From an uncultured Geobacteraceae bacterium (GTDB taxonomy: Bacteria; Desulfobacterota; Desulfuromonadia; Geobacterales; Pseudopelobacteraceae), in NCBI GenBank assembly GCA_903939115.1, contig CAJAFV010000028.1:62001-126000 (forward strand): a stretch of 64,000 bases of DNA. The letters are read 5' to 3'. This document shows positions 6,138 to 33,663 of the stretch, piece after piece; within the stretch, counting starts at the first letter, position 1, and each line of letters begins with the position of its first letter. A program made the position numbers and the translations under genes. A model generated the notes under the pieces. The model was not told the origin of the DNA. It did no database searches and saw only the letters and a program-made list of their open reading frames with translations.

Positions 6138-6175
6138 TGTCTGCTCCTTTTTTTTCATTTTAATTTCCGTTGATA

Positions 6176-7843: not shown

Positions 7844-7901
7844 TGTCAGGATCCTGATGAATTGCGCTGCGCTGACCGTCCTGCACTTCATGTACCTTCG
7901 C

Positions 7902-9245: not shown

Positions 9246-10531
9246 AGCATTGCCCGTGGCTGACCTGTCGACGCAATGACGCTACCCCACAACCACCCCT
9301 CAGGATCGACCTTCTTCCTCTTGCTTGTGGCGAGGGCAATCGGAACATGGGTAAACTGGTGATTCCAGAAACCGACCACCATGTCGGTGCAGCCGCTCAT
9401 CCCGGCATGCACGGCGTTCTGCCCGAGCAGCAGACAGAGGACAGAATCGTGAGGATTGGCCGGTTGGCTGCGAATAATGTAGCTCGGGTCTATATACTTG
9501 ATGTTGCACTCTATCCCGCGACCGCTGAAATGTCCCTTGATCGCGTCCCGCAGAAACGTGCCGATATCGCCGAGTTTGGCGTTACCGGAGGCGTCGCGCC
9601 CCTCCGTGGCCGCGAACAGCTCCTGGCCGGCCCCTTCGGCTGCCACGATCACGGCATGGCCGCGCCGTTGCAGCCGTTCATCCAGACACCGCAGTAAACC
9701 GTCAAGGGTGAAGGGCACCTCCGGCAGCAGACAGAAGTTGACCTGACTGTCGATCAGTGAAGCGTAGGCGGCGATGAACCCTGAATCACGCCCCATCAGC
9801 TTCACCAGGCCGACACCGTTGCGCGCGCCGATCGCCTCGGTGTGAGCGGCGTAGATGGCGCGGTGGGCCTCGGCCACGGCGGTCTCGAAACCAAAAGTTT
9901 TCTGGACATAGGAGATGTCGTTATCGATGGTCTTGGGAATACCGATAACAGAGAGAGTATGGCCGCGGCGACGCGCCTCCGCAGCAATAGCGCCTGCCCC
10001 TTTAAGGGTGCCGTCGCCGCCGATAGCGAAAAGGATACCGACTCCCAGTTCAGCCAGATAGTCCACCATCTCGGCCGGATCCTGGGGGCCGCGGGAGGAT
10101 GCCAGAACGGTCCCCCCCTGTTCACCGATAGCACTCACCACATCCGGTGTCAGCTCCAGAGGGGCATGACCGTAGCGTTTCACCAGCCCCTCATACCCGT
10201 AGCGGAAGCCATAGATTTTCTTGATGCCATAGTGATGATGCAGGCTCAGCGTAATGGCGCGGATCACGTCATTGATGCCCGGGCAGAGTCCGCCGCAGGT
10301 AACGATGCCGCAGGCGATAGTCGCAGGGTCGAAAAAAATCCGTTCCCGGGGCCCGGCCAGCTCGAGGGATGGCGGTTCCTCCCCGGCGATAATGTACGGC
10401 TGTATATCTTCAAAACGTGAGTGATAGAGTAGACGCTCACGCTCTGCGATGAACCGCCCCTCCCGCATCGGAGACGGGAAGCGGCACGGACCGAGATGCT
10501 CGATGGTGAAGTCGGCGGTTTGACCATTCAT
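9242..10531 (-). CDS. 6-phosphofructokinase, plant-type (group III), probably ATP-dependent
   Basis: A 429-residue glycolytic enzyme that phosphorylates fructose 6-phosphate. It resembles plant ATP-PFKs more than E. coli PfkA: a long N-terminal extension, GGLCPGINDVIRAI at 80-93, GGDGTLKGA at 171-179, GIPKTIDNDI at 197-206, and NGVGLVKLMGRDSGFIA. GGDG (not GGDD) at the phosphoryl-donor loop with Lys in PKTIDND is the combination seen in group III ATP-PFKs; pyrophosphate-dependent enzymes normally have GGDD plus Lys. The start at 10531 has AAGGA 8 nt upstream. It is followed without a gap by the HD-GYP gene, an unusual pairing. The true phosphoryl donor would need an assay. Confidence 0.9.
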   Translation of the reverse strand: MNGQTADFTIEHLGPCRFPSPMREGRFIAERERLLYHSRFEDIQPYIIAGEEPPSLELAGPRERIFFDPATIACGIVTCGGLCPGINDVIRAITLSLHHHYGIKKIYGFRYGYEGLVKRYGHAPLELTPDVVSAIGEQGGTVLASSRGPQDPAEMVDYLAELGVGILFAIGGDGTLKGAGAIAAEARRRGHTLSVIGIPKTIDNDISYVQKTFGFETAVAEAHRAIYAAHTEAIGARNGVGLVKLMGRDSGFIAAYASLIDSQVNFCLLPEVPFTLDGLLRCLDERLQRRGHAVIVAAEGAGQELFAATEGRDASGNAKLGDIGTFLRDAIKGHFSGRGIECNIKYIDPSYIIRSQPANPHDSVLCLLLGQNAVHAGMSGCTDMVVGFWNHQFTHVPIALATSKRKKVDPEGWLWGSVIASTGQPRAML

Positions 10532-10629
10532 AGGAAGTGTCCTTTCTTTAGGCAGTGCTTCCAAAGAGCGTTGCGCCGAGCGGATGGCTCTGCCCTGAAG
10601 TTATTTCATGCTCTGACATACTGAATTCA

Positions 10630-13131
10630 TTATCCCGGCAAGATTCTGGCACTCCAGATCTTCTCGCAGTAATCGCGAATGGAGCGGTCCGAGGAAAACA
10701 TGCCCATCCGGGCCACATTCAGGATCGACATCCTGGACCAGAGTTCACTGTCACAATAGGCCGCATCAATCCTCTCCTGGCAGTCGATATAGGCCTGGTA
10801 ATCTGCCAGTACCAGGTAGTCGTCATGATTGAGGAGCTGTTCCACCAGCGGTCGGAACAGCTCGCAATCGCCGCCGGAAAAGTCGCCGGCGGCAATCCGG
10901 TCGATGGCGTCCCTTAGATCCTGATTCCCTTCGTACCGGCTGCGCGGGGCGTAGCCGCGCGACTTCACGTCCTGTACTTCCGCGGCGTTAAGACCAAAGA
11001 GAAAGAAGTTATCCTCGCCGACTTCTTCACGAATCTCAACGTTGGCGCCGTCAAGGGTGCCGACGGTGAGGGCGCCATTCAGCGAAAATTTCATGTTGCC
11101 GGTTCCCGAAGCCTCCTTGCCGGCGGTGGAGATCTGCTCCGACAGATCGGCGGCCGGATAAATCACCTGACCGTTGGTGACATTGAAATCGGGGAAGAAA
11201 ACTACCTTCAGACGACCGGCCACGTCAGGGTCATTGTTGACCACCTCACCAACGGAGGTGATCAGTTTGATAATCAGTTTGGCCATGTGATAACCGGGCG
11301 CCGCCTTGCCGCCGAAGATGAAGGTCCTCGGGGTAATGTCGCTCTGCGGGTTCCGCTTGATCCGGTTATACAGAGTAATGATGTGCAGTACTTTGAGGTG
11401 CTGGCGCTTGTACTCGTGAATCCGTTTCACCAGCACATCGAACAGGCTGGCCGGATCAACAGTAATGCCGGTTCTCTGTTTGATCAGAGCCGCCAGAACC
11501 TTTTTGTTTTCTTTCTTAATCTTCTGCCATGATTTTTGGAAGGTGCGGTTGGTCGCAAACTTTTCCAGACCGTGCAGCTCGCCGGGTAATGTTAACCATC
11601 CGTCTCCAATTTTCCCGGTTATGAGAGCGGTCAGTCCAGGGTTGCTGAGCGCGACCCAGCGACGAGGGGTTACGCCGTTGGTGACGTTATGGAAACGTTC
11701 AGGATAGAGTTCATAAAAGTCCCGCAGGATGGTCTGCTTGAGGAGTTCCGTATGGAGCGCCGCTACTCCGTTGATGGCATGGCTGCCGACACTGGCCAGG
11801 TGCGCCATGCGCACGTATCGTCCACCGCTCTCATCGATAATTGACATCCGTGCAGCCAGTTGATCATTGCCGGGCCGGGCGAGTCGCACCTCGTCGAGAA
11901 AGCGCCGGTTGATTTCGTAGATGATCTCCAGGTGGCGCGGCAGCATCTCGGCAAAGAGCGGCAGCGGCCATTTTTCGAGGGCTTCCGGCAACAGTGTATG
12001 GTTGGTATAGCCCATGGTGCTGCGGGTGATCTGCCAGGCACTGTCCCACTCCAAACAGTGTTCATCGACCAGCAGTCGCATCAGTTCGGCCACGGCGATG
12101 GATGGGTGAGTATCGTTGAGCTGCACAGCAAAGCTCTCGGCAAAAGTGTCAAGATGCTGTCCCCGCAACAGGTGGATGCGGAGCATATCCTGCAGCGAGC
12201 AGGAGACAAAGAAATACTGTTGAGCCAGACGCAGCTTTTTACCGATCTCCGGCTCGTCGTTTGGATAGAGGACCTTGGAGATGGTCTCTGAGACGATTTT
12301 TTCATCGACAGCCCGGTAGTAGTTGCCAAGATTGAACGCCTGAAAATCGAAGGATTCGACCGCCTCCGACTTCCAGAGCCGCAGCAGGTCGGTTACCCCC
12401 GACCGGTAGCCGGCCACCGGCGTATCGTAGGCGACCCCCTTGACAATCTTGTTCGGCATCCAGCACACCTGCATCCGGCCGTTTTCGTCGGCAAGCTGCT
12501 CCGTGTGTCCCCCCAGGTTTACCAGATAGGTGATTTCCGGTCGGCAGATCTCCCAGGGATTTCCCAGCCGCAACCATTTGTCGGTCTTTTCCACCTGCCA
12601 TCCGTCGCGGATCTCCTGATCGAAGATACCGAATTCATAGCGGATGCCGTATCCGATAGCCGGAACCCGCAGGGTGGCAAGCGAATCCATGTAACAGGCT
12701 GCCAAACGGCCGAGACCACCGTTGCCGAGCCCCGGCTCTTCCTCCTGCTGCAGCAGGTCGTCGAGATCCTGGCCGAGTTCGGCCACCGCCTGCCGGATCG
12801 GCTCCGTGATCCCCAGGTTCACAAGATTGTTGCCGAGATGGGGGCCCATCAGGAACTCCGCTGAAAGGTAGCTGACTATCTTCACCTCCTTGCGCCGCAG
12901 ATGCTGCAGTGAAGTGAGCCAGTCATCCAGCATCCGGTCGCGGACGGCACAGGCAACCGCCATATACCAGTCGTTGCGCGAAGCCAACGGGACAGAGCGC
13001 GCCTGAGTAAAGTGCAGGTGGTCAAGAACCGCCTGTTTCAGGTCCGCACAGCTCATGCCGCGGCGGGCATCTTTTACGCCAACGGGCGGAGAGAGATCAG
13101 CTTTATTTCCGGTCATACGTTTGTCCGCCAT
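10630..13131 (-). CDS. glgP: Glycogen/starch phosphorylase
   Basis: An 833-residue enzyme that releases glucose 1-phosphate from glycogen using phosphate. It is full length for the family. Landmarks are YLSAEFLMGPHLGNNLVNLG, EPGLGNGGLGRLAACYMDSL, QLNDTHPSIAVAELMRLLVD, and the pyridoxal-phosphate site EASGTGNMKFSLNG, where Lys681 should carry the cofactor. AGAGGA lies 9 nt before the ATG. It is 98 nt upstream of the phosphofructokinase gene on the same strand, and glucokinase lies further upstream. This places glycogen breakdown and early glycolysis together. Confidence 0.97.
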   Translation of the reverse strand: MADKRMTGNKADLSPPVGVKDARRGMSCADLKQAVLDHLHFTQARSVPLASRNDWYMAVACAVRDRMLDDWLTSLQHLRRKEVKIVSYLSAEFLMGPHLGNNLVNLGITEPIRQAVAELGQDLDDLLQQEEEPGLGNGGLGRLAACYMDSLATLRVPAIGYGIRYEFGIFDQEIRDGWQVEKTDKWLRLGNPWEICRPEITYLVNLGGHTEQLADENGRMQVCWMPNKIVKGVAYDTPVAGYRSGVTDLLRLWKSEAVESFDFQAFNLGNYYRAVDEKIVSETISKVLYPNDEPEIGKKLRLAQQYFFVSCSLQDMLRIHLLRGQHLDTFAESFAVQLNDTHPSIAVAELMRLLVDEHCLEWDSAWQITRSTMGYTNHTLLPEALEKWPLPLFAEMLPRHLEIIYEINRRFLDEVRLARPGNDQLAARMSIIDESGGRYVRMAHLASVGSHAINGVAALHTELLKQTILRDFYELYPERFHNVTNGVTPRRWVALSNPGLTALITGKIGDGWLTLPGELHGLEKFATNRTFQKSWQKIKKENKKVLAALIKQRTGITVDPASLFDVLVKRIHEYKRQHLKVLHIITLYNRIKRNPQSDITPRTFIFGGKAAPGYHMAKLIIKLITSVGEVVNNDPDVAGRLKVVFFPDFNVTNGQVIYPAADLSEQISTAGKEASGTGNMKFSLNGALTVGTLDGANVEIREEVGEDNFFLFGLNAAEVQDVKSRGYAPRSRYEGNQDLRDAIDRIAAGDFSGGDCELFRPLVEQLLNHDDYLVLADYQAYIDCQERIDAAYCDSELWSRMSILNVARMGMFSSDRSIRDYCEKIWSARILPG

Positions 13132-21569: not shown

Positions 21570-22784
21570 CTACCTCTTTTCTTGTTTAGCTGGTGCGGCA
21601 GGCTTCATATCTGCGGCGGCGGGATCTTTTTTCGCCTGGCCGTCCGGGTTGTATGGTTGCGGATTAACCGGACTGCCCGACCTTACTTTCTGAATCCCTT
21701 CGACGATAATCTTCTCGCCCGGTTTGAGCCCCTCGGTAATAACCCAGAGTGAACCGACCACTTCAGCAACCTTTACCGGGCGGAGGTCAGCGGTATTGTC
21801 AGCTTTTACGACGGCAACAAGGTATTTTCCCTGCATTTCGGTAACCGCGCGCTGCGGCACGAGCAGAGCCGCTTTTCTGATACCCATGACCGCTCTGATC
21901 CGGCCGTACTGGCCGGGGCGCAGCAGGCTGTTCTGATTGACAAAGAGTATGCCGACCTTGAGTGTGCCGGTCGTCGGGTCAACCTGACGATCGGCCAGAG
22001 AGAACTTTCCTTTGTGCGGATAGACACTGCCGTCAGCCAGGATAAGCTCCAGGGGGATATTTTCGAGGTTCTGATTGCTCTCCCGGCCCGCAAGATATTC
22101 CCGTTCACTGACGTTAATAAAAGCTTTGATCGGATTGACGCTGGATACGGTAGTCAGCTCCTGCGAGGAACTCGGTCCCACCAGGTTGCCGAGTTGGGTC
22201 TTGGCGATGCCGGCGATGCCGTCAACCGGTGAGGTAATCTTCGTGAAGCTCAGATTCAACTGGGCATTTTCGAGCGCAGCCTGGGCGGTCTCTACTGAAG
22301 ATCTGGAGGAGAGTTCGGAACCGGTGGCATCGTCCAGGTCTTTCTGGCTCACCGCATTCTTTGCAGCCAGAGGTTTGATGCGTGCCAGGTTTGCCTTTGA
22401 CGTGTCATAACGGGCCTGTTGTTGCGCCAGCTGACCTTTCGCCTGATCCAGCGATGCCTGGAATGTCCGGGGGTCGATCTCGAAGAGCACCTGCCCTTTT
22501 TTGACCAGTTCCCCTTCGCGATAGTTCTGCCTGACCAGATAGCCGGTCACCTGAGGCCGGATGACGGCGTTGACATTACCATCCAGTGAGCCGATCCACT
22601 CCTTGTAGATCGGGACATCCTGGACTGTCACGGTAGTCACTTCCACCGTGGGGGGTGGTGGCGGCGCGGGTTTTTCCTTTGCGCACCCGGCTACGACAAG
22701 CATCCCGCAGAGGAGACCTCCCGCAATCAATCCGGTCTTCATCTCCATCCAGCTGGTTTTCGTCGTGAGTGTGGTCCATTGCAT
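21570..22784 (-). CDS. RND efflux periplasmic adaptor lipoprotein (AcrA-like)
   Basis: A 404-residue membrane-fusion protein. AGGAGG 9 nt before the first ATG supports the long form, although internal ATGs at codons 13 and 15 would give a shorter signal peptide. The lipobox is LVVAGC (Cys34), followed by a proline-rich linker. The barrel-sandwich (VIRPQVTGYLVRQNYREGELVKKGQVLFEID), a coiled-coil hairpin of about 100 residues and the beta-barrel with LADRQVDPTTGTLKVG are all present (landmarks quoted in part). It joins the pump to the outer-membrane channel. It lies 35 nt after cti on the same strand, so the pump operon probably begins with cti. Confidence 0.95.
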   Translation of the reverse strand: MQWTTLTTKTSWMEMKTGLIAGGLLCGMLVVAGCAKEKPAPPPPPTVEVTTVTVQDVPIYKEWIGSLDGNVNAVIRPQVTGYLVRQNYREGELVKKGQVLFEIDPRTFQASLDQAKGQLAQQQARYDTSKANLARIKPLAAKNAVSQKDLDDATGSELSSRSSVETAQAALENAQLNLSFTKITSPVDGIAGIAKTQLGNLVGPSSSQELTTVSSVNPIKAFINVSEREYLAGRESNQNLENIPLELILADGSVYPHKGKFSLADRQVDPTTGTLKVGILFVNQNSLLRPGQYGRIRAVMGIRKAALLVPQRAVTEMQGKYLVAVVKADNTADLRPVKVAEVVGSLWVITEGLKPGEKIIVEGIQKVRSGSPVNPQPYNPDGQAKKDPAAADMKPAAPAKQEKR

Positions 22785-22819: not shown

Positions 22820-25192
22820 TTAAAGGGCCCGGTAGTAGTAGCGGTTTAAATCAAAAAGCCCGCCATACACCGGTTCATCTTCATTAGAGCGTTTCTGAAA
22901 CCAGTCGTAGGTTTCCCAGAAGCGGTCGTCCGCCCGGTTTATCCCGTACTTTGCCAACCGCGCAAGATCCTTCGGGGTCTCTTCGAAATGTGCCAGCAGA
23001 TCGATAAAATCAGGGAGATCCTCTTCGCGCACATCAAAGAAATAATTCGGGTATGAGCCGATCAGCCCTTTGACAAAATCGACACTGTCCTTGGTCGCAT
23101 CGAGCCTGGCATCCTCCTTGATCAGGAAGGCCACATTATCGTGCCAGCGGTTGACCACCATACTGCTGACCACATCCGTACCGTTCTTCAGGCGGATCCT
23201 CAGGTAGGCAAGGTTGGAGTTTTGGCCATTGATCACCCGGGCGAACGGGGTGCCGGGTTGGGAAAGCACCCGGAAAGCCCGCAGATAGTCCTCCGTGCTT
23301 TTGTACTCTTTCGGCATCGCGGGATAGCCGACCCCTGCACGCAGATAGTTGATCGGATCAAAAGATATACCGCTGCCCGGAAGCAGATGTCGATCAACAA
23401 CCTGTTCGACAAACTCGCGCTTGGGGTTGTCGGTTACGAAAGGGATCTGTGCCGGCAGCGCAGACGGGTAGTAATGCATTTTGTCCAGTTTCTCTCCCAG
23501 ATACCATGACTGCATGATCTCCTGACGTTTGGCCGGGGGGAGGAAATCGAGGAAATAGCTCTCCCCTTCGACGCGCAGTTCATCCATGTACAGCCTGACG
23601 GCCAGCTGGTGGCCGGCGGTGCCGTAGATGTCGAATCCGGCAACGAGGGCATAGTAGATCCGCTCCAGCAGCGGATAATCGATAACCCACAGTGTCTTGG
23701 GCAGATTCCCGAGCGCCCCCTTATGCACCGAGGCGCTGTCGAAATGGCGATAGATGGTAAGCAGCGGCTCATCGCCGGGACGACTCCCCGCCCAGATGGC
23801 ATCATAGCCAAGGCCGGAGTAGTTATGCGACATGTAGTAATCCTGCCGGGCCTTGTAAAATTCGACCGCCGCTTTGCGGTGCACATCGGTAAGCGCCGAG
23901 AAGAGTCCCAGGTCACTGCCGCTTTCTGTCGGCATGGTAAGCCGGTCAGCGTGCAGCTTCAGAAATGCCGGGTATTTAACACTCAAATCGTGATCAGGGT
24001 CCATGAACATCACCCAGAATTGATCATCAATCACATTGAGAGCTATCTGCCCCTTGCAGACCGGACCATGAATGAACGTCGTGATCGAATACCGGGCATT
24101 GTCCAGTAAGAACTGATAGCGCGAACGGGGCGGGATCTGCTCGAACACCGTGAACGGCCGGGCACTCAGTTTCGGGTCATACTCCATCAGATGAGGCGGC
24201 TGCAGCCATTCGGGCTGGATGAACAGTTCGTTGAAGCGTTTGAGCTGGGCATCATCGAAGTCGAATACCATGTGGGTCTTCTGGACGATAGTTGAGTGGA
24301 TTTTCCTGAAACGGTAGTAAAACTGCGCCACCCCCGGGTTGTCATACGGGCGGACAGACGCGATAAGGTTGATCGGTTGCCCCGGAGGAGTTGTGGAGCG
24401 CACCATTTCATAGAATTCGTTGGTCGATGTACCGAATTTCAGATGTGCCAGGAAGATGTGTTCGTAAATATAGCGCGCCGTCATTGCATGCTTGGCGTCA
24501 CTTTGGTTAAAAAAGGTTTCCCATTGCGCTATGGCCACCGCATCTGCCGGCTTCGGCTCCGTGAGCAGCTCCTGTCGGGCGGTATCAGGCCCTTTGGCAC
24601 CCTGAGCGAGCCAACCGGCAATGATCTCGAACTCATCCTGCTTCAGCGGCGGAAAACCGAACGGCATGCCGTTGTTGGGGTGCTTTTCCAGATACCCCTC
24701 CACCTCTTTCCGATTATCGGCGCAGGTCAGGTCATCCGCTTCAGGTTTGTACTCGCCGGTACTCTTCGGGTTTTTCATCTTGTGGGAGAGCAACTGGATC
24801 ATCAGCGAATCGTTCAAGCCGTCACCGACGGTGCTCTCGGTGACGCTGAAAAACTTCTTCTCCCGCCACTCTCTGGTACTCTGGGCGTCGGTAAACAGGC
24901 GGGTCGGCTCCATGGTGCTCAACCGCGAGGAGTTATATATTGCGCGTTTCGTTGCACCCCTGTCTACCCCCTCGAACGAGTCCAGCTTCAGTTGGCAGGG
25001 TGAGTTGTAGCAGGAGTGACAGACCGTACAGCGCTTGTCCAGCAGCGGCTTGACCTCTTTCTGATAGTCGATGGTACGGGTCGGGATTTTAACCGATACC
25101 GGAGGGAGCGCCTTCCCGGCGCAGCCGGAGAGGAGAACGAACAGCATCAGGATGAACGGAGTGAATAATTTAGGGGTAGTTGCCAAGGACAT
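22820..25192 (-). CDS. cti: Fatty acid cis/trans isomerase (haem-containing lipoprotein)
   Basis: A 790-residue periplasmic enzyme that converts cis-unsaturated membrane fatty acids to trans, stiffening the membrane under solvent or heat stress. Lipobox LLSGC (Cys24) indicates a lipoprotein. One haem-c motif CTVCH is at residues 55-59, at the usual place for Cti. Family marks include the YQKEVKPLLDKRC segment, the long central domain with GPVCKGQIALNVIDDQFWVM, and the C-terminal DFIDLLAHFEETPKDLARL. Length is typical. GGAGGAG before the ATG is strong. It heads the RND efflux genes, which makes functional sense because both counter membrane-active solvents. The 224-nt AT-rich gap upstream probably holds the promoter. 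Confidence 0.95.
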   Translation of the reverse strand: MSLATTPKLFTPFILMLFVLLSGCAGKALPPVSVKIPTRTIDYQKEVKPLLDKRCTVCHSCYNSPCQLKLDSFEGVDRGATKRAIYNSSRLSTMEPTRLFTDAQSTREWREKKFFSVTESTVGDGLNDSLMIQLLSHKMKNPKSTGEYKPEADDLTCADNRKEVEGYLEKHPNNGMPFGFPPLKQDEFEIIAGWLAQGAKGPDTARQELLTEPKPADAVAIAQWETFFNQSDAKHAMTARYIYEHIFLAHLKFGTSTNEFYEMVRSTTPPGQPINLIASVRPYDNPGVAQFYYRFRKIHSTIVQKTHMVFDFDDAQLKRFNELFIQPEWLQPPHLMEYDPKLSARPFTVFEQIPPRSRYQFLLDNARYSITTFIHGPVCKGQIALNVIDDQFWVMFMDPDHDLSVKYPAFLKLHADRLTMPTESGSDLGLFSALTDVHRKAAVEFYKARQDYYMSHNYSGLGYDAIWAGSRPGDEPLLTIYRHFDSASVHKGALGNLPKTLWVIDYPLLERIYYALVAGFDIYGTAGHQLAVRLYMDELRVEGESYFLDFLPPAKRQEIMQSWYLGEKLDKMHYYPSALPAQIPFVTDNPKREFVEQVVDRHLLPGSGISFDPINYLRAGVGYPAMPKEYKSTEDYLRAFRVLSQPGTPFARVINGQNSNLAYLRIRLKNGTDVVSSMVVNRWHDNVAFLIKEDARLDATKDSVDFVKGLIGSYPNYFFDVREEDLPDFIDLLAHFEETPKDLARLAKYGINRADDRFWETYDWFQKRSNEDEPVYGGLFDLNRYYYRAL

Positions 25193-25416: not shown

Positions 25417-27882
25417 TTAGATGCTTTCCCTAATCGTCACTTCCAGCGGGCGGGACGCATCCAGATGGAGGTCTCGCTGCGGGAACGGTATGCTGATTTT
25501 CGCCTCGGCGAGATATTCACTGATCCGGTGCCGGATTTCACTCCGAACGATATTGCTGTTGATCTCCGGATCAATGTTGACCCAGAAAAACGCCCGGAAA
25601 TTGAGTGAACTTTCGGCAAAATCCTCGAATACCACACAGGGGGGCGGGTCGCTGCGCACTTCCTGCTGTGCCACGACTGCACGAAAAATGACCTCTTCAG
25701 CGCTGCGGGTCGACGTACCGTAGGCGACGCCCACGGTTATTTCATAGCGGGTGAAGGGGTCCGAGAGCGTCAGGTTGACCACATTCTGCTGGAGAAACAC
25801 ACTGTTGGGAATCAGGATTTCGATGCCATCGAAACGCCTGACCTGGGAACTGCGGAGATTGATGGCGGTCACACGGCCGCGCTGACCATCGACCTCCACC
25901 ACATCATTCAACCGAATGCTCCGGTCAAAGATAAGGATCAGGCCGCTGATGAAGTTATTGATCAGCGTCTGTGCGCCGAAACCGACCCCGATAGCAAGCG
26001 CGCCACCGAAGAAGGTGAATACCGCCAGAGGGATATTAACGGTGACCAGCGAGAAGATCAGGATGCAGATAAAAATCAGATAATACGTCACCCGTCCGAA
26101 AACCTGGGCATCATTCTCGTTCAGGGTGAATTTACGGGCAGCGTGTCGCTGCACCGGCACCATCAGTTTCCTGGCAACAAAAATTCCGATAAAAAAGATC
26201 AGCAGAGCCTGGATAACCTTGCCGACAGTGACGCTCCGCGATCTGACGACCTTCTGCCCGTCAATGACGACGGTCTCTTCGGCAACATACAGGTTGGTAT
26301 TCCAGATCTTGCCGCTGAATAAGAAGGTGTCCGACAGCCGGCTCTTCAACCTGACCGTAACAGGCTTGCTCTCTTCAGCGCGCACCGCGATTTCACTGAC
26401 AAGACGCTGGATGAGCTGCTCCGTTTGAGAAAGCCGGTCTTCAACACGTAAGATCAGGCTTTTCTGTTCCTGCAAGGCGGCGAGGAGTATCCGGGCGGTC
26501 CCCCGTTCTTTCTCAGACAGGGTGGGAGCAGCAATCCGGCTCTGCTGATTCCTTATGTTGATCTCCACACTCTCCAGGCGGGAGCGGACATATTTCCTCC
26601 AATCCTGAGTCGTGACAAGCCCCTTCTGCAAATCGGTAACATCGAGAACGGACTCATCCTTGCCCGGATTGGCAAACTGGAAACGATTTTTCCAAAGTCT
26701 CTGTTCCGCCTGGACTGTCCGGTTTATCAACTTGAGAACCAGAACCTTGACGTTGGCGGTTTCGACTTTCGCCTGCAGCACCTCCATGGCCAGCCTGACA
26801 GCGACAAGACGGGGGGATTCCGCAGCAGCATGTTCGCCCATCGCCGTGGTGCTCTTGATCTGCTCCATCGACCTGCGCACCTTTTCCAGCTCCAGGCGTT
26901 CGTAGTCCTCACTAGTGACGGCAATCTCAAGTTCCTGCTTTAACCGATCCCGCTGACTATCGAGTCCCTTCAATTTTATGTCGAGCTCTTCACGGGTGAA
27001 GCTGAAATTGCCGCTGGCGAGGGTAAGCTTTTGCTCAAGAAAGCTGATCTCCTGTCGAAGCCATGCCATCTCTTCATGCAATCTCTGTCGTTGCGTCTCC
27101 AGAGAGATACTGGCGGTTTCATTCAGATCATTGCGCCGGGTTGCCAGGGCCAGCAGCCAGATCGTGCGCGCCTCATTCGGCTTGCCGACGCTCTGGTCCC
27201 GACGTTCTTCGGCAAGGCGCTGTCCGGTCCGGCTCTCCTTCAGATTGGTCGTATAGTCCGCAAGCTCCGCCTCGGTTATGACCATACGCATCTCTTGCGT
27301 ATTCAGTTCGATCTTCCGGGTCTGGAGTAAGTCCTGCAGACTGTCCAGAAGACTCAGCGGATACGGCGGTTTTTGAGAAAAGCCGCGCCACTCTTTGCGT
27401 TGCGTTTCCAGATCCTTGAGAGACTGGCGGTTGTCCTTGAGAAAGCGAAAGTATGTGACGCGGTTTTCGAGCTGTGTGATAATCTTGTCAGTCAGTGACC
27501 GCCACTCCCGGTACTCTTCGGAAGTAGCACCGCTCGGGACGCCTGAGGAGAGGAGCGTGACCCCTTCCGGCAGCGGTTGCGAGCGGAGAGCGCTTTCTCT
27601 CTCCTGAATCCTTGCAATGGCGGCATCAATCTGTTCATTGGTAAAGGCGCCGCTCGCAGGAATCTCGGAAGAGGAGTGCTTTTTCTGTACGGCACTGACC
27701 GTTTTAAGCGGGAGGTTGACGGCCAGAGCTGGGATCGGCGACAGTGCCATCAGAGCGGCGATAATCCCAAACAGCAGCGAACTGGCGATACGGGGTGAAT
27801 GATTAGAAATCAGCATCTCAGACCGCTCATACTTTTCCCCGGTATGTACCAGGTTTATTACATCTGATTCCATGCGTGTCAT
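25417..27882 (-). CDS. Large MscS-family mechanosensitive channel (MscK/YbdG-type architecture)
   Basis: An 821-residue channel. A signal-like hydrophobic segment (about 32-52) precedes a roughly 450-residue periplasmic, coiled-coil-rich region (many Glu/Arg/Gln heptads). Membrane helices follow at about 545-565 and 580-640, and the MscS pore and beta domain come at the end: FFGGALAIGVGFGAQTLINN, then GLILIFDRSIRLNDVVEVDG and IEILIPNSVFLQQNVVN. It should open under turgor stress. The first ATG overlaps the pqiC-like stop (ATGA), which supports it. An internal ATG at 27816 would give a more ordinary signal peptide. It is the last gene of the pqi transcript. Confidence 0.9.
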   Translation of the reverse strand: MTRMESDVINLVHTGEKYERSEMLISNHSPRIASSLLFGIIAALMALSPIPALAVNLPLKTVSAVQKKHSSSEIPASGAFTNEQIDAAIARIQERESALRSQPLPEGVTLLSSGVPSGATSEEYREWRSLTDKIITQLENRVTYFRFLKDNRQSLKDLETQRKEWRGFSQKPPYPLSLLDSLQDLLQTRKIELNTQEMRMVITEAELADYTTNLKESRTGQRLAEERRDQSVGKPNEARTIWLLALATRRNDLNETASISLETQRQRLHEEMAWLRQEISFLEQKLTLASGNFSFTREELDIKLKGLDSQRDRLKQELEIAVTSEDYERLELEKVRRSMEQIKSTTAMGEHAAAESPRLVAVRLAMEVLQAKVETANVKVLVLKLINRTVQAEQRLWKNRFQFANPGKDESVLDVTDLQKGLVTTQDWRKYVRSRLESVEINIRNQQSRIAAPTLSEKERGTARILLAALQEQKSLILRVEDRLSQTEQLIQRLVSEIAVRAEESKPVTVRLKSRLSDTFLFSGKIWNTNLYVAEETVVIDGQKVVRSRSVTVGKVIQALLIFFIGIFVARKLMVPVQRHAARKFTLNENDAQVFGRVTYYLIFICILIFSLVTVNIPLAVFTFFGGALAIGVGFGAQTLINNFISGLILIFDRSIRLNDVVEVDGQRGRVTAINLRSSQVRRFDGIEILIPNSVFLQQNVVNLTLSDPFTRYEITVGVAYGTSTRSAEEVIFRAVVAQQEVRSDPPPCVVFEDFAESSLNFRAFFWVNIDPEINSNIVRSEIRHRISEYLAEAKISIPFPQRDLHLDASRPLEVTIRESI

Positions 27883-28499
27883 GTCGGAGAACTCTTGAGC
27901 GTATCGCCTGCCGTCGCCATTCCTTGCAGCGCCGTGGCAAGATCCCGGCTGACAGCGGCCAGAGCTCGGCTCTGGGCTGCCACCAAAGTATCATACCCTC
28001 CGTTCGTGACCGGCTCATGTGCCGCGGCACGACCGTTTTTCACTGCTCCGCCATCGCTGCGGCGGATCGACCAGAGAAGATCAACAGTCACCCCTTTACC
28101 CTCGGTCATCTCGAAACGCTGGATATCGATCTGAACACGGAAAACGGCATCAAGGCCGGAGTTTTGCGGGTATACCGAAACCCTGGACGGTTTAAGCAGT
28201 AGAGACAGATTGGCGGCGATAATACGGGGGAGTTCGCTCTTCAATGGTGCCGCCCAACGGTGCATTTCAAGAATATCCACACGGTTGGCGTCAACAGTGA
28301 CGACGAATTGGGGTCGATCCAGCAGATCAGGAAGAGTGACCGGCCCTATTACCACTGATTCAAGAGCCTGAGTAGCGGACTCTGGAGCAGCTGCGGCATT
28401 AAGGGTGTAAAAGGTTACCCGTGGCGATCTGCTGCAACCGGTAAGCAGTACCATTACCAGACAGAGGGTAGTCAAGCTGGTGATCAGGCGTGGTATCAT
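27879..28499 (-). CDS. pqiC: PqiC-like ABC-transport auxiliary lipoprotein
   Basis: A 206-residue lipoprotein (lipobox VLLTGC, Cys22) of the PqiC/YmbA family. It starts SPRVTFYTLNA after the lipid anchor, with VVIGPVTLPDLLDRPQFVV and RWAAPLKSELPRIIAANL as family marks. PqiC is anchored in the outer membrane and forms the outer end of the PqiABC lipid-transport bridge. AGGAGG precedes the ATG, which overlaps the pqiB stop (ATGA). Its own stop overlaps the channel gene start in the same way. Confidence 0.9.
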   Translation of the reverse strand: MIPRLITSLTTLCLVMVLLTGCSRSPRVTFYTLNAAAAPESATQALESVVIGPVTLPDLLDRPQFVVTVDANRVDILEMHRWAAPLKSELPRIIAANLSLLLKPSRVSVYPQNSGLDAVFRVQIDIQRFEMTEGKGVTVDLLWSIRRSDGGAVKNGRAAAHEPVTNGGYDTLVAAQSRALAAVSRDLATALQGMATAGDTLKSSPT

Positions 28500-30127
28500 G
28501 GTTTTTCCTCCTGTTTTCCACGGATAAGAGTCTCAGGATTGCGCTCCAGATAATCAGTTAATGCCCGCAGCGATTGCGCAGCCTTCGCCAGTTCGCGCAG
28601 CGCTTCACGCAGATCGCTCTGCAGCGGTGCATCAGCCGAAAGGGTCTGCTTCGCCGCACCGAGGGTTTTGCGGGCATCTTCCAACACCGCCTTCACCTCA
28701 GGCACGATCTCGGCATCTACCTTCTTGACCATGGTATCGGTACTCTTGAGAGTGGTATCCAGGCTCTGCACCGCCTGGCGTACCTCTACGAGAACTTCAC
28801 CAAGCGGCAACTGATCAATCTTATGAAATATCTTATCGAGCGCTGCCTGTAGCTCCATCAGACTGCCGGGCGTTGTAGGAAACTGGGGCGGATTCGTGCT
28901 CCAGACTACCGCTGCTTTTGGAGCATTCGGGAAGTAATCAAGAGCGACGAAGAGCTGCCCGGTCAGCATATTGCCGCTCTTAAGCTGCGCCCGCAGGCCG
29001 CCGGCGACCATCCCGTTGATCATTTCATGACTCTCTTTCGCCCTCGGTATCTTGCCGGAAGAGCGCGAACGGAGACGTTCCGGGAAGAGCCTGATATCGA
29101 CCAGCATATTTATCTGCCTGCTGTGACTGTCATACTCCACGCGAATGCCCGATACTTCTCCTATCGCCAACCCACGGAAGTCAACCTGTGCCCCTGGAAT
29201 TAAGCCCCGCACGGACTCCTTAAAAACGAGCACATAGCTTTGACTGATCGAGTCGCGATTCTTCATCGCCTCTTCCCGGTTGGCAAAAAGAGTGAAAGCG
29301 CTGTTTGGTCCGGTCGGCGGGGCTTCCCCCTCTTGATTAAGAGTCTGGAAAGCGATACCGCCGACGAGGATTGAGACCAGAGATTGCGTGTCGAGCTTCA
29401 TTCCCCCTGCATCTATCGAGAGGTCTATACCGCTGGCATTCCAGAAGCGGGTGTTCGCCTTGACATACGTGTCGTACGGCGCGTTGACAAAAACCGTGAA
29501 CGTCACCCCGGTCCCCCCCTTGTCAAGATCATAGGAGATAACCTGTCCCACCTGAATGCGACGGAAATAGAGGGGCGAACCGATGTCGAGCGATCCGAGG
29601 TCAGCTGCATGCAGCATAAAGCGGGTACCCGGCAGATCCGTGGTAATGGCCGGCTGTGTATCCAGGCCCTTGAAGTCCCGCTGCGGCTGTTTGGACGTGC
29701 CGATGTCAAAGTTAATATAGGCGCCGCTCATCAGGGTTCCGAGGCCGGTCACGCTCCCGCCGGTAATCTGCGGACGCACCACCCAGAACCTGGTGTCCTC
29801 CACCAGATACGGCGTGACCCCCTTTTTCAGCTCGGCAGTCGCGATTACGTGATTAAGCTCTCTGGCAATGGCAATATCTGTTACCACCCCGACCTCGACA
29901 TCCCGGAACTTGATTTTGGTTTTGCCGGCTTCCAACCCCTCACCGGTCTTGAAGGCAATGGTGATGGTCGGCCCTTTCTGCAGATAGGTCTTGATCGCCA
30001 GCGTGCCACCGACCAACGCGGCAATGAGGGGAATGAGCCAGACGAGTAGAATTGAATGGCGTTTTTTCGGTTCAGCCACAGCTTCAGGTATAGCGGAGAT
30101 ATCCTGATCGTCCAGTGTCTCATTCAT
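28496..30127 (-). CDS. pqiB: PqiB-like MCE-domain intermembrane lipid-transport protein
   Basis: A 543-residue protein with one membrane helix (about 26-44) and then MCE domains in series (GPTITIAFKTGEGLEAGKTK; LPGTRFMLHAADLGSLDIGS; a third near VRGLIPGAQVDFRGLAIGEV), ending in a long helical needle. MCE proteins form hollow tubes that move phospholipid between membranes. The start at 30127 overlaps the upstream pqiA stop by 8 nt; a longer reading to 30394 runs inside pqiA and is rejected. E. coli PqiB has the same three-domain plan. Confidence 0.95.
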   Translation of the reverse strand: MNETLDDQDISAIPEAVAEPKKRHSILLVWLIPLIAALVGGTLAIKTYLQKGPTITIAFKTGEGLEAGKTKIKFRDVEVGVVTDIAIARELNHVIATAELKKGVTPYLVEDTRFWVVRPQITGGSVTGLGTLMSGAYINFDIGTSKQPQRDFKGLDTQPAITTDLPGTRFMLHAADLGSLDIGSPLYFRRIQVGQVISYDLDKGGTGVTFTVFVNAPYDTYVKANTRFWNASGIDLSIDAGGMKLDTQSLVSILVGGIAFQTLNQEGEAPPTGPNSAFTLFANREEAMKNRDSISQSYVLVFKESVRGLIPGAQVDFRGLAIGEVSGIRVEYDSHSRQINMLVDIRLFPERLRSRSSGKIPRAKESHEMINGMVAGGLRAQLKSGNMLTGQLFVALDYFPNAPKAAVVWSTNPPQFPTTPGSLMELQAALDKIFHKIDQLPLGEVLVEVRQAVQSLDTTLKSTDTMVKKVDAEIVPEVKAVLEDARKTLGAAKQTLSADAPLQSDLREALRELAKAAQSLRALTDYLERNPETLIRGKQEEKP

Positions 30128-30773
30128 GCCCGGGCCTCTCTTTTTGAAGTGGATCCCATATAAGTCGGGGGTCAAACTGCAGTGCGGAAAACATGGTGAG
30201 AACAACAACCGCGCCGAAGGCCACTGCTGCCGGACCGGCCTTGATCGTCGCCAGGGAGCCGATCTGCACCAGCGCGGCAAGGATAGTGACGACATAAATA
30301 TCCAGCATTGACCAGCGGCCGACAAATTCAACAACCCGGTACAATTTGGTTCGCTGCAGCGGCTGCCATACTGAGCGGCGCTGTACTGAAACAAGCAGCA
30401 GAGTCATGGCAATCAGTTTCAGGAGCGGCACCATGATACTGGCGACAAACACTACAAGAGCAAGATCCCAGGATCCTGAATACCAGAGATAGAGTACGCC
30501 GCTCATGATGGTATCGTCCTGGGAGCCGAACAGGGAACTCGTTTCCATTATTGGCAACAGGTTGGCGGGAATATACATGATATACGCCGCGATGAGCAGG
30601 GCCCATGAACGGGCCACACTATCCGGCTTACGGAAATGAAGCTCTGCGGAACAGCGCGGACAGTGAACTACGCCCCCCATGTCCGCCCCTTTGTCCGCCC
30701 CCCTGGAGAGCAGCCCGCAGGTATGACAGGAATAAAGAGCGCGACTGGCAGCAGTAACCGGCACGCCGTTCAT
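30120..30773 (-). CDS. pqiA: PqiA-family membrane protein, second half-size copy
   Basis: A 217-residue inner-membrane protein with an N-terminal zinc-ribbon (Cys 16, 19, 38, 41: CHTC...CPRC) and four membrane helices, with IPANLLPIMETSS as the family motif. E. coli PqiA carries two such ribbon-plus-four-helix halves in one chain; here they are two genes. The start at 30773 overlaps the stop of the previous gene (ATGA), which rules out the slightly longer reading. It should anchor the PqiB tube in the inner membrane. Confidence 0.9.
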   Translation of the reverse strand: MNGVPVTAASRALYSCHTCGLLSRGADKGADMGGVVHCPRCSAELHFRKPDSVARSWALLIAAYIMYIPANLLPIMETSSLFGSQDDTIMSGVLYLWYSGSWDLALVVFVASIMVPLLKLIAMTLLLVSVQRRSVWQPLQRTKLYRVVEFVGRWSMLDIYVVTILAALVQIGSLATIKAGPAAVAFGAVVVLTMFSALQFDPRLIWDPLQKERPGHE

Positions 30774-31399
30774 TCGTCCACCTCCCGACACGGCAGCGCT
30801 TCCACCCGGTCCCAGACATCGCGGATATCGAATGAAGATGCCGTTGCGGCCAGCAGCAGAGTAAGGATGCCGAACGCCCAGAGAGCCATATCAGGTATGA
30901 CAGTCCCGTAGTGGGTGAGTTTCACCAGCGCGACGATCACCCCAAGCATGAACACCTCCAACATCCCCCAAGGATTGACGTGCTGCAGGGCCCGCATTAA
31001 CAGAGTCATGCCGGCAGGTCTGCGCCCGTACTTGAGCGACAGCAGGATATAGCCCATTATTGCCAGTTCGACAGCTGGCACCAGAAAGGTCGTCAGGAAC
31101 ACGAGTACGGCAATCGGCGGCATTCCCTGATGCCAGAGGGCATAGGCGGCGCCAAAGAGAGTGGTCGCATTGCCTGATCCCTGGATTTCAAGGCCGACAA
31201 TGGGATAAACATTGGCAACGGTTAACACGACGGCTGCAGTCAGCAGAAAGGCGAGCGGTTTATCAAGAGTGCTATGAGCAGAGCGGTACAACTCAGCACC
31301 GCAGCGACCGCAGAGCACTACCTCGCCCGGCGGCAGGGCAATTTCACGCTGAAGCAGATCACATTCGTGACAGGCAATAAGTGGCGCAGAAGCAGTCAT
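30770..31399 (-). CDS. pqiA: PqiA-family membrane protein, first half-size copy
   Basis: A 209-residue protein with a zinc-ribbon (Cys 10, 13, 30, 33: CHEC...CGRC) and four membrane helices, including TVANVYPIVGLEIQG and NPWGMLEVFMLGVIVALVKL. AAGGA lies 7 nt before the ATG at 31399; a GTG one codon upstream is less well spaced. It is the first gene of a five-gene chain (pqiA, pqiA, pqiB, pqiC, channel), each overlapping the next by 4-8 nt. This implies fixed stoichiometry of a lipid-transport complex. Confidence 0.9.
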   Translation of the reverse strand: MTASAPLIACHECDLLQREIALPPGEVVLCGRCGAELYRSAHSTLDKPLAFLLTAAVVLTVANVYPIVGLEIQGSGNATTLFGAAYALWHQGMPPIAVLVFLTTFLVPAVELAIMGYILLSLKYGRRPAGMTLLMRALQHVNPWGMLEVFMLGVIVALVKLTHYGTVIPDMALWAFGILTLLLAATASSFDIRDVWDRVEALPCREVDE

Positions 31400-31427
31400 C
31401 ACTTTTTCCTTGGTACCGTAACTAGTC

Positions 31428-32135
31428 CTATGGAGCTATTTTGCGATATTCTGAGTTTTTAACAGTGATTTTGAGCTTCTTATGTTTTGCCTCTAATACC
31501 GTCTCACGGGCAAATGTGGCACTGCCGTAGAGAGATCCCAAGGTCACCGCCAAAGTCAGGGGATCCTGTTCAGTATCGAGATGGCTGTTTATATTCAGTG
31601 AGAGCGGCCGGTTATTTGTCAGATCCAGGTCCAGGTCGACACGGTCACCTTTTACAAGAAAATCCCTGAGGGACAGTCGACCTCGAATGGCCGGTTCAGT
31701 AACGGTAAAGGTCAGTGTACCATCTACAGTAACCGCCTGAAGTCCATTTGGATTCAAAGGAATGTACTGGTGAACAAGTCGCACTGCGTCCTGAATGTAT
31801 CCGGTCATCTCCTGCTTTTTTGGCGCTGCGACTTTTTCGCACACGCCGCGCATGATGTTGTGCTGAACAGGCTGGACAATCGGCACCTTCCTGACTGTCC
31901 CGTCAGCATCGTAGGAAACCCGCTGTTGTGAGCAGAACTTCTCCATCCTGTCGATGCTGATAATGGTCGTTTCAACCCACTCATACTGGCGGAGGACGGT
32001 CTGGCTCTCAACAAGATGAACTTTGAGGGAGACAACTCGATCAGTAGGGGTCGGCTCTTCTGCAAAGACAGGCAGGACAAAATTCCCGCCAATCAGAGCC
32101 GCAAGGATTACGAAAATCAGAGTTGTTCTTTTCAT
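31428..32135 (-). CDS. Exported protein of unknown function upstream of pqi genes
   Basis: A 235-residue protein with a signal peptide (residues 1-25, ending VFA-EE). It is not recognised. The mature part has two cysteines (EKFCSQQ and RGVCEKV). The C-terminal half is beta-rich with repeated hydrophobic strands (VTVDGTLTFTV, DRVDLDLDLTNNRPLSLNIN), resembling periplasmic lipid-binding or LEA-like beta folds in general character only. It lies 28 nt before the first pqiA on the same strand, so it is probably the first gene of that transcript and may work with the lipid-transport bridge. Confidence 0.7.
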   Translation of the reverse strand: MKRTTLIFVILAALIGGNFVLPVFAEEPTPTDRVVSLKVHLVESQTVLRQYEWVETTIISIDRMEKFCSQQRVSYDADGTVRKVPIVQPVQHNIMRGVCEKVAAPKKQEMTGYIQDAVRLVHQYIPLNPNGLQAVTVDGTLTFTVTEPAIRGRLSLRDFLVKGDRVDLDLDLTNNRPLSLNINSHLDTEQDPLTLAVTLGSLYGSATFARETVLEAKHKKLKITVKNSEYRKIAP

Positions 32136-32403: not shown

Positions 32404-33012
32404 ATGAAAAACAGAGTATATATCTTCCTGATGTTTTTGACGCTGCTCGCACTGTCCGGCTGCGCCTCAATCTCGCTGCTCCACTCCGCCAAGGATCCCG
32501 CTGTCTCGGCAAAACAGTACAAAAAACTGCTTATCGTCGGAATTGCGGAAAGGCCTCAGATGCGGCAGGTCTTTGAGGAGGTTTTTGCCGGAGAGGTACG
32601 GAAAGGGGGAGCGGACGGTATTGCCAGTTACTCTATTACCGGCGTCAGTGACAAGCTGTCCCGGGCCGCGGTCGTGGAAGCGGTTAAAAAATCAGGAGCC
32701 GATGGTGTGGTCACCACCCGTCTCGTCGGCAGCAGTAAAAAAAGTGATGTTCGCACCGGCTTTGTAATGACAGACCGCGGCGTCGACTCTTATTGGGGTG
32801 GAAGCGTCTCTTATGCTGAATTTATCCATCAGCCGGTAGAGGTCATCACTTCGACAGAGGTGTCGATTGAAACGAATCTCTTCGATGCCGGGACAGGCAA
32901 GATGGTCTGGTCGGGCGCTTCGAGTGCGGTGAATCCTGAAGGTATAATCACTATCACCGGTAATCTTGCTGATCTCGTGATCAAGGCCATGAAAAAAGAG
33001 GGCTTACTGTAA
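32404..33012 (+). CDS. Lipoprotein, first of a paralogous pair
   Basis: A 202-residue lipoprotein with lipobox LALSGC (Cys20). After the anchor comes YKKLLIVGIAERPQMRQVFE, then an alternating alpha/beta pattern (VVEAVKKSGADGVVTTRLVG) and a C-terminal segment (SIETNLFDAGTGKMVWSGAS). This layout resembles lipoproteins of the GNA1162/LpoB-like or DUF4136-like type, but I cannot assign a named family. The next gene is clearly a paralogue, and both end in GLL. It is probably an outer-membrane or periplasmic anchor protein; the partner is unknown. Confidence 0.75.
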   Translation: MKNRVYIFLMFLTLLALSGCASISLLHSAKDPAVSAKQYKKLLIVGIAERPQMRQVFEEVFAGEVRKGGADGIASYSITGVSDKLSRAAVVEAVKKSGADGVVTTRLVGSSKKSDVRTGFVMTDRGVDSYWGGSVSYAEFIHQPVEVITSTEVSIETNLFDAGTGKMVWSGASSAVNPEGIITITGNLADLVIKAMKKEGLL

Positions 33013-33066
33013 TCGGAACTGATTGGCAGTATGACTTTTGATACCAAGCTACAGGGAGGATATATG

Positions 33067-33663
33067 ATGGGAAGTTCAGGGCAAGGTTCCACCACACGGT
33101 TTTTAAGCTGCTGCCTGGCAGTAATTATGCTGCTGTTGACGGGAGGCTGTTCCTCTATAAGTGTCGTGGAAACGTGGCACAAACCTGCCGTAGAGGCGCA
33201 TCGGTACCAAAAAATAATGATTCTCGGAGTCTCCCGGGATGAAAACATGCGCAGTACGTTTGAAAACCTTGCTGCGGACGAATTGAGCAAACACCAGGTG
33301 CAGGCGGTTCCGGGCAATACGATCATACCGGTTCTGAATATGGACAAGGCAACCCGTGCGGAGATTGTTGCAGCGGTCAAAGCCTCCGGGTGTGATGCGG
33401 TATTGACTACCCGTGCCATGTCCGTCGGCAGCGCCACTGTTTCCCAGGGAGGCGAGTCGGCCTATATCTACGGGGCAAACTCCCTCTCTTCCCACTATGA
33501 TTTCAAACGGGCAACGCTTCAGATCAGCATGTTTGACGTCGCCACGGAAGCGCTGGTCTGGAGTGCCACGGTTACGACCACTGACGGTGACTCAACAGCC
33601 AAAGTCAGTCGTGATATGGGTAAGTTCTTTTTTGAGAATCTGCGCCGTGACGGTCTGCTTTAA
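33067..33663 (+). CDS. Lipoprotein, second of a paralogous pair
   Basis: A 198-residue lipoprotein (lipobox LLTGGC). It mirrors the upstream gene: YQKIMILGVSRDENMRSTFE matches YKKLLIVGIAERPQMRQVFE, IVAAVKASGCDAVLTTR matches VVEAVKKSGADGVVTTR, and DVATEALVWSATV matches DAGTGKMVWSGAS. GGGAGGA at 33054-33060 is best spaced for the ATG at 33067 (33064 is also possible). The two genes are probably a tandem duplication that has diverged. The function is unknown. Confidence 0.75.
   Translation: MGSSGQGSTTRFLSCCLAVIMLLLTGGCSSISVVETWHKPAVEAHRYQKIMILGVSRDENMRSTFENLAADELSKHQVQAVPGNTIIPVLNMDKATRAEIVAAVKASGCDAVLTTRAMSVGSATVSQGGESAYIYGANSLSSHYDFKRATLQISMFDVATEALVWSATVTTTDGDSTAKVSRDMGKFFFENLRRDGLL

Follow-up and report, generated by a model that had tools for sequence, protein, structure and literature searches.

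In a stretch of 64,000 nucleotides (nt) from an uncultured Geobacteraceae bacterium (contig CAJAFV010000028.1, positions 62,001 to 126,000), hereafter the window, four genes of the pqi type are followed by a gene for a large MscS-type channel. The pqi operon is a bacterial lipid-transport operon that moves lipids between membranes, and MscS-family proteins are pressure-sensitive membrane channels. The locus thus raises the question of whether lipid transport and the channel belong together, or whether they merely came to lie side by side. Our comparison with related genomes indicates that MscS channels, as a class, are tied to one patchy lineage of pqi operons, and that this lineage gained such channels at least twice. 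The particular channel of the window mostly resides elsewhere in relatives.

MscS-family channels accompany one pqi lineage

The search covered 141 genomes, most of them draft assemblies, from the order of the window's genome, presumably Geobacterales; the window's genome is designated G000. Outside the window, 71 further pqiB loci were scanned with locally built profiles for MscS, PqiA, PqiB, and PqiC, and a tree of PqiB was calculated from the resulting 72 rows (the window plus the 71 loci) with IQ-TREE in quick mode. The window and all five other loci that carry a channel fall into a single clade of nine loci, termed pqi-2 (SH-aLRT 99).

At six of the nine pqi-2 loci, an MscS-family gene lies within or next to the operon, and each of the six channels runs in the same direction as its operon. 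Four of these channels are small (314-328 amino acids) and lie downstream of pqiC, in G056 (locus L068), G091 (L101), G111 (L102), and G131 (L104). Three of them are separated from pqiC by 156, 157, and 22 nt; in G056 the gap is 1006 nt and holds a nitroreductase-like frame. All four possess the MscS beta-domain, matching PF00924 with 38.4-41.4 bits against a cut-off of 20.2, and PF21082 was not reported for them. The remaining two channels are large, and are placed downstream of the operon in the window and upstream of it in G060 (L093). By comparison, no MscS-family gene was seen at any of the remaining pqi loci, which number 72 (63 from the set of 71 and nine added to it). At least 1.5 kb is visible on both flanks in 52 of these, and at least 3 kb in 50; the view of the other 20 is truncated, for the most part by the end of a contig, and four (L087, L108, L137, and L190) contain runs of N. 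Therefore, the expectation of the sequence-only reading that a survey would find channels beside pqi genes in relatives is borne out for MscS channels as a class, at pqi-2 loci.

The difference between 6 of 9 and 0 of 72 loci corresponds to a Fisher p of 2.6e-7, which becomes 1.5e-6 when only the 52 well-covered loci are counted, and 1.0e-5 when the window is also left out (5/8 versus 0/52). Given the density of MscS genes (368 matches in the 141 genomes) and a neighbor defined as lying within ~3 kb, channel neighbors would be expected at 0.09 of nine pqi-2 loci, where six were observed (P about 6e-11; without the window, 5/8 loci are linked, P about 6e-9). All of these statistics, Fisher and density-based alike, ignore shared descent. 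A stronger argument than the P values is that two separate channel branches occur at pqi-2.

The small and large linked channels are far apart in the MscS tree, on separate branches in a tree in which some branches are long; thus, pqi-2 gained channels at least twice. The four small linked channels are mutually 76-88% identical, as compared with 83-89% for their PqiB proteins, and are probably the result of one acquisition. Their hydrophobic helices lie near the N-terminus, and they have no room for a periplasmic domain.

Among the loci examined, pqi-linked channels are confined to the pqi-2 lineage. This lineage is patchy, with loci spread over family codes f1 to f4, which are all of the codes in the order search, and in three of the genomes concerned (G071, G111, and G131) an ordinary pqi operon is present as well. 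A tenth pqi-2 locus, in G123, is a remnant in which pqiB residues up to 348 run into small-channel residues 256-318, a fusion that points to a former order of pqiB followed by the channel. In 395 genomes drawn evenly from the phylum, matches outside the order reach 48% identity at most, on which basis a pqi-2 lineage beyond the order was rejected. Spread of the linkage by plasmids was rejected on match identities: all 135 plasmid records with a PqiB match are under 60% identity, the channel matches are likewise all under 60%, and none spans 80% of the large channel; gene order in those records was not inspected. Among the genomes searched, the pairing is known only from Geobacteraceae relatives.

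The operon and channel of the window

The gene order pqiA1-pqiA2-pqiB-pqiC-channel, head to tail and entirely on the minus strand, is as the sequence-only reading gave it, and the Pfam identities of the five genes agree with it. Matches of the window's genes to NCBIfam models agree in name with those to Pfam, and stay under the NCBI naming cut-offs. The first two genes, pqiA1 (30770..31399, with an alternative GTG start at 31402) and pqiA2 (30120..30773), each encode a half-size PqiA with one PqiA membrane domain (PF04403; 3.5e-51 and 1.4e-55, respectively). They correspond to positions 9-205 and 215-412 of the 421-position PqiA model NF011683, so that the membrane domains of a PqiABC system are present in two genes. 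CxxC motifs are found in both, CHEC...CGRC in pqiA1, where they appear zinc-ribbon-like from the translation, and CHTC...CPRC in pqiA2.

The pqiB gene (28496..30127) encodes three MCE domains (PF02470, MlaD/MCE, 6e-35, in three stretches) behind a single N-terminal membrane anchor, a hydrophobic helix at residues 26-44 by hydropathy. Its product matches positions 3-533 of the 542 in PqiB model NF008070, with 426.6 bits against a naming cut-off of 525. Beside it, pqiC (27879..28499) encodes a lipoprotein (PF03886, ABC_trans_aux, 2.2e-42) with an LTGC lipobox read in the translation, and scores 44.6 bits with NF033620, under the cut-off of 200. By gene content, the locus is a PqiABC-type operon, with a putative role in moving phospholipids between membranes.

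Every junction in the array had been said to overlap by 4-8 nt. This is the case for pqiA1/pqiA2 (4 nt, 30773-30770), pqiA2/pqiB (8 nt, 30127-30120), and pqiB/pqiC (4 nt, 28499-28496). At the last junction, the overlap depends on the start codon chosen, because the channel gene (25417..27816) has two candidate in-frame starts. With the first ATG, at 27882, the channel gene overlaps pqiC by 4 nt (27882-27879), whereas the further ATG at 27816, directly ahead of a signal peptide, leaves a gap of 62 nt. Ala32 of this signal peptide is nearly invariant among aligned relatives.

Neither the overlapping codons nor the split PqiA can be regarded as a special feature, since both are ordinary in relatives. 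Overlapping starts occur in other pqi operons (for example, L069 and L102). PqiA is indeed divided in the window, and two PqiA reading frames are likewise present at 62 of the 71 loci; eight have a single fused frame of 431-458 codons between stops, and the one locus that shows no PqiA does so since its contig ends there. Within pqi-2, PqiA is fused at three of the nine loci (L093, L103, and L104) and encoded by two genes at the other six, and fusion or fission therefore occurred within one lineage. At L069 (G043; 7228-10132, minus strand), pqiA1-pqiA2-pqiB is found with no recognizable pqiC, and the channel homolog of that genome is on another contig. At L190 (G092; 6147-13001, minus strand), the PqiB match ends a very long open frame (3771 residues, or 2285 in the fetched stretch), whose length is probably an artefact because the stretch contains runs of N.

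The channel gene product has 799 residues when counted from the start at 27816. It consists of a signal peptide, a periplasmic helical domain of ~480 residues in which hydropathy indicates no further hydrophobic helices, and a core of three transmembrane helices from about residue 530. The core, beta-domain, and C-terminal domain of the MscS superfamily are all found, and both PF00924 (7.5e-19) and PF21082 (5.5e-10), whose identities are MS_channel_2nd and MS_channel_3rd, are above cut-off. The protein is thus a member of the MscS superfamily, for which gating by tension is putative. Glycines and alanine of the pore helix (G604, G605, A606, G610, G612, and G614) are invariant in 16 aligned channels.

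An AlphaFold2 model of the monomer, made from 16 sequences (mean pLDDT 76.5, pTM 0.49), predicts seven long helices of 37-55 residues each in residues 99-483, then a strand pair at 508-530 and the core helices. The best matches in both sequence and fold are MscK and MscS; missing fold matches to other proteins carry no information. The core matches MscS (6vyk_A) with a Z of 14.8 and a root-mean-square deviation (rmsd) of 17.1 over 251 residues. For the periplasmic part, it is chiefly MscK that aligns (Z 15.6, 524 aligned residues), but with an rmsd of 43.4, so that a fold relation is tentative.

Large channels beside several kinds of MCE operon

Matches to the large channel at an E-value of 1e-30 or better occur in 33 of the 141 genomes. 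In 16 of these, the window included, the match extends over most of the channel, and the neighborhoods of the other 15 were read. Only the window and G060 have the channel adjoining pqiA or pqiB; in G060, it is placed upstream, on the same strand as a fused pqiA and a pqiB that the contig end truncates. The linkage had been supposed to be fixed; for this channel it is not, and a position beside pqi that is kept throughout was not found among these 16 near-full-length relatives.

The channel of the window nevertheless belongs to a clade (seven rows in the MscS tree, SH-aLRT 91) that is found beside other MCE genes. In two genomes, mla genes begin one gene beyond the channel, downstream and on the same strand. 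In G090, the channel is followed by a DUF4410 gene, mlaE, an mlaF-like gene, mlaD, and a gene for a pqiC-type lipoprotein; in G091, it is followed by a response-regulator gene, mlaE, mlaF, mlaD, and a tolC-like gene. The names of the mlaF-like gene of G090 and the tolC-like gene of G091 rest on reading of the sequence. Both kinds of pairing occur together in G091, which has a small channel at pqi and a large one at mla.

Altogether, four of the seven members of the clade lie beside MCE genes, where the density of MCE genes predicts 0.11 (P 1.7e-6); without the window, three of six do so (P 8e-5). Only five of the seven show enough context, because those of G021 and G477 are on contigs of 6.2 and 4.0 kb, and the member in G043 is not beside MCE genes. 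A scan of contigs with the channel returned a single record, labeled uncultured Geobacteraceae, which is the same 6,209-base contig as that of G021. The large-channel subfamily thus lies at three types of MCE operon. As controls, no MCE neighbors were seen at 10 loci of other long MscS genes (three of them on stretches under 12 kb) or at nine loci of unlinked small channels, although diverged neighbors could have been missed, most of all in control loci of other families, because the search for MCE neighbors started from single-sequence seeds taken from this order.

Interpretation of the linkage

We lean, with modest confidence, toward the view that an MscS-family channel is an accessory gene added to the PqiABC trans-envelope lipid conduit of the patchy pqi-2 lineage. 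The most likely basis for its retention, which we hold to be somewhat probable on the strength of gene position, is a selected functional tie consisting of co-expression and indirect coupling via membrane tension. Such a tie is favored by the fact that a single pqi lineage has channels from two unrelated MscS subfamilies, and that one of these subfamilies occurs at three MCE operon types; a common function of channel and conduit in lipid balance and membrane tension would fit it. Thus, the hunch that pqi and MscS channels belong together gains comparative support from gene order, as seen in the contrast between pqi-2 and other pqi loci, whereas the fixity of the array and the unusualness of its overlaps and split PqiA had been overstated.

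According to this proposal, the channel and the PqiABC conduit would be made together under envelope stress, as a co-expressed envelope module. Movement of phospholipids by PqiABC between the inner and outer membranes may change the area and tension of the inner membrane. Raised tension would then open the channel and so be relieved, and lipid movement would stay tolerable. In the large type of channel, the helical domain may additionally act as a sensor of the periplasmic side, a role that has been suggested for the MscK gating ring.

Several observations weigh against a functional tie. It is deduced from gene position throughout, and most pqi systems do without a channel, as do three of the nine pqi-2 loci (G071, G122, and G043). 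The nearest homologs of the window's channel, in G021 (80% identical) and G043 (59%), are not beside pqi. In a 10-row sister clade of large channels, G054 is the only member with MCE genes on the same strand, at a distance of ~8 kb; in a further clade of nine rows, drawn from other families, pqi genes occur only in G361, ~5-6 kb off and on the opposite strand. Among small channels, a close relative of the four linked ones (83-90% identity) occurs in G041 with no pqi beside it, which demonstrates that channel and operon do part; eight more at 56-61% identity are unlinked, and the fragment found in G102 likewise has no pqi nearby.

Some of these observations would be expected if a general osmotic-shock channel had been appended to one pqi lineage and inherited with it, as envelope genes cluster loosely, with no specific tie to lipid transport. 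We consider this explanation rather unlikely, yet it is the alternative that fares best. The independent events are few, because pqi-2 is small (the tree needs four label changes) and its small channels probably trace to one acquisition. Other envelope genes, cti and a gene for an RND adaptor, are also next door in the window. The solitary channel of G041 and the 72 pqi loci without a channel are likewise in its favor. However, hitch-hiking requires several coincidences, in that channels of two unrelated subfamilies would have arrived on either side of the operon, and the large clade would have come to lie beside mla as well. The control loci, at which neither long (0/10) nor small (0/9) MscS genes have MCE neighbors, also argue against it.

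A second alternative, which appears improbable, is a direct complex: the large channel would bind PqiB or PqiA through its periplasmic helical domain, and would gate the flow of lipids in response to tension. The predicted seven-helix domain might provide such a surface, the periplasmic ring of MscK is described as dilating on opening (PMC9653487), and the large type occurs at all three MCE operon types. A contact of this kind cannot apply throughout, because such a domain is absent from the small linked channels. Moreover, the symmetries differ, as the sources describe PqiB as a hexamer and PqiC as an octamer (PMC10897342), and MscK as a heptamer (PMC9653487). For the large channel itself, such a complex is conceivable. 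Finally, it is very improbable that the channel gene is a passive relic that decays or moves so often that its position is uninformative on function: the two closest homologs look damaged, with neither having an intact start (that of G021 is without the first ~131 residues and that of G043 has an in-frame TAA near the start), and G123 holds only a fragment, but this damage is unsure because all are draft assemblies, the damaged copies of the closest clade are the unlinked ones, and the copies of the window, G060, G090, and G091 are open over nearly their full length with invariant pore-helix glycines.

A functional tie between channel and conduit, if true, would mean that a recurrent tension-responsive partner offers a concrete, testable control input for PqiABC. 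A broader generalization is doubtful: PqiABC conduits, and some Mla or Mpc conduits, might form a group of "tension-coupled" MCE systems, each with a dedicated MscS-family channel that reads inner-membrane tension and adjusts lipid flow or protects against it, recruited independently from at least two subfamilies.

Neighboring genes and related arrays

Downstream of the channel by 224 nt, and not counted in the array, lies a gene for a fatty acid cis/trans isomerase (cti; 22820..25192, minus strand; PF06934, 5.6e-255). The next gene on the same strand encodes the RND efflux adaptor (21570-22784). The stretch from the channel through cti to the adaptor gene resembles a membrane-stress island. 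On the other side, a secreted-looking protein of 235 residues (31428-32135, minus strand) ends 28 nt upstream of pqiA1; it has no Pfam or NCBIfam match at an E-value of 0.001, and no blastp match to it was shown near pqi in the loci of relatives. Beyond it, two adjacent lipoprotein-like genes (32404-33012 and 33031-33663, plus strand) have weak matches to DUF4136 below the cut-off.

In G054, genes for an mlaD-like protein, a pqiC-like protein, an AI-2E-type transporter, RND pump components, and a large channel share one orientation across ~11 kb (L033; 7323-19032, minus strand), where the names of the AI-2E-type transporter and RND pump rest on reading of the sequence. The RND-channel part of this array is also seen in G066 (L095).

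Comparison with known systems

Searches of one library of open-licence papers listed no recognized report of linkage between pqi or mla and a channel; one paper (PMC12684718) has both genes in one list, and draws no linkage. The chimeric Mla-Pqi system of Brucella, Mpc, has the same composition as the genes downstream of the G090 channel, as described in PMC12436622. It is presented there without a channel, in that "mechanosensitive" is absent from the main text; the window itself holds pqi, not mpc.

PqiABC of Escherichia coli and the system of the window both have PqiA, PqiB with three MCE domains, and a PqiC lipoprotein (PMC10897342). The E. coli-type PqiA model represents one protein of 421 residues, whereas in the window PqiA is split over two half-size genes and a channel is added. 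The same source describes PqiABC as having no known ATPase, and its driving force as an open question.

MscK of E. coli (PDB 7uw5 and 7ux1) is the best match of the window's channel among NCBIfam models, PDB sequences, and folds. In both proteins, a periplasmic domain of ~500 residues precedes an MscS core, but MscK, as described in PMC9653487, has 11 transmembrane helices, whereas the channel has three and its periplasmic domain leads directly into the core. Filing the channel as MscK is ruled out by this difference, and by a score of 141 bits with NF008438 against a cut-off of 991. The channel resembles an MscK stripped of its extra membrane helices.

The nearest precedent for the linked loci is psd-mscM of E. 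coli, in which a lipid-synthesis gene is co-transcribed with an MscS-family channel gene under the control of two envelope stress pathways (PMC8138132). The authors of that paper call the pairing striking, with no obvious direct functional link except membrane homeostasis. The MscM model matches the window's channel only in the core (105.1 bits versus a cut-off of 809), and the partner gene encodes phosphatidylserine decarboxylase in E. coli, as compared with a trans-envelope MCE transporter in the window. By analogy, the pqi-channel pairing appears to be of the same sort as psd-mscM, but with a lipid bridge in place of the decarboxylase. If a functional tie exists, the unexplained pairing of E. 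coli would become one case of a wider pattern that joins lipid supply to MscS-family channels.

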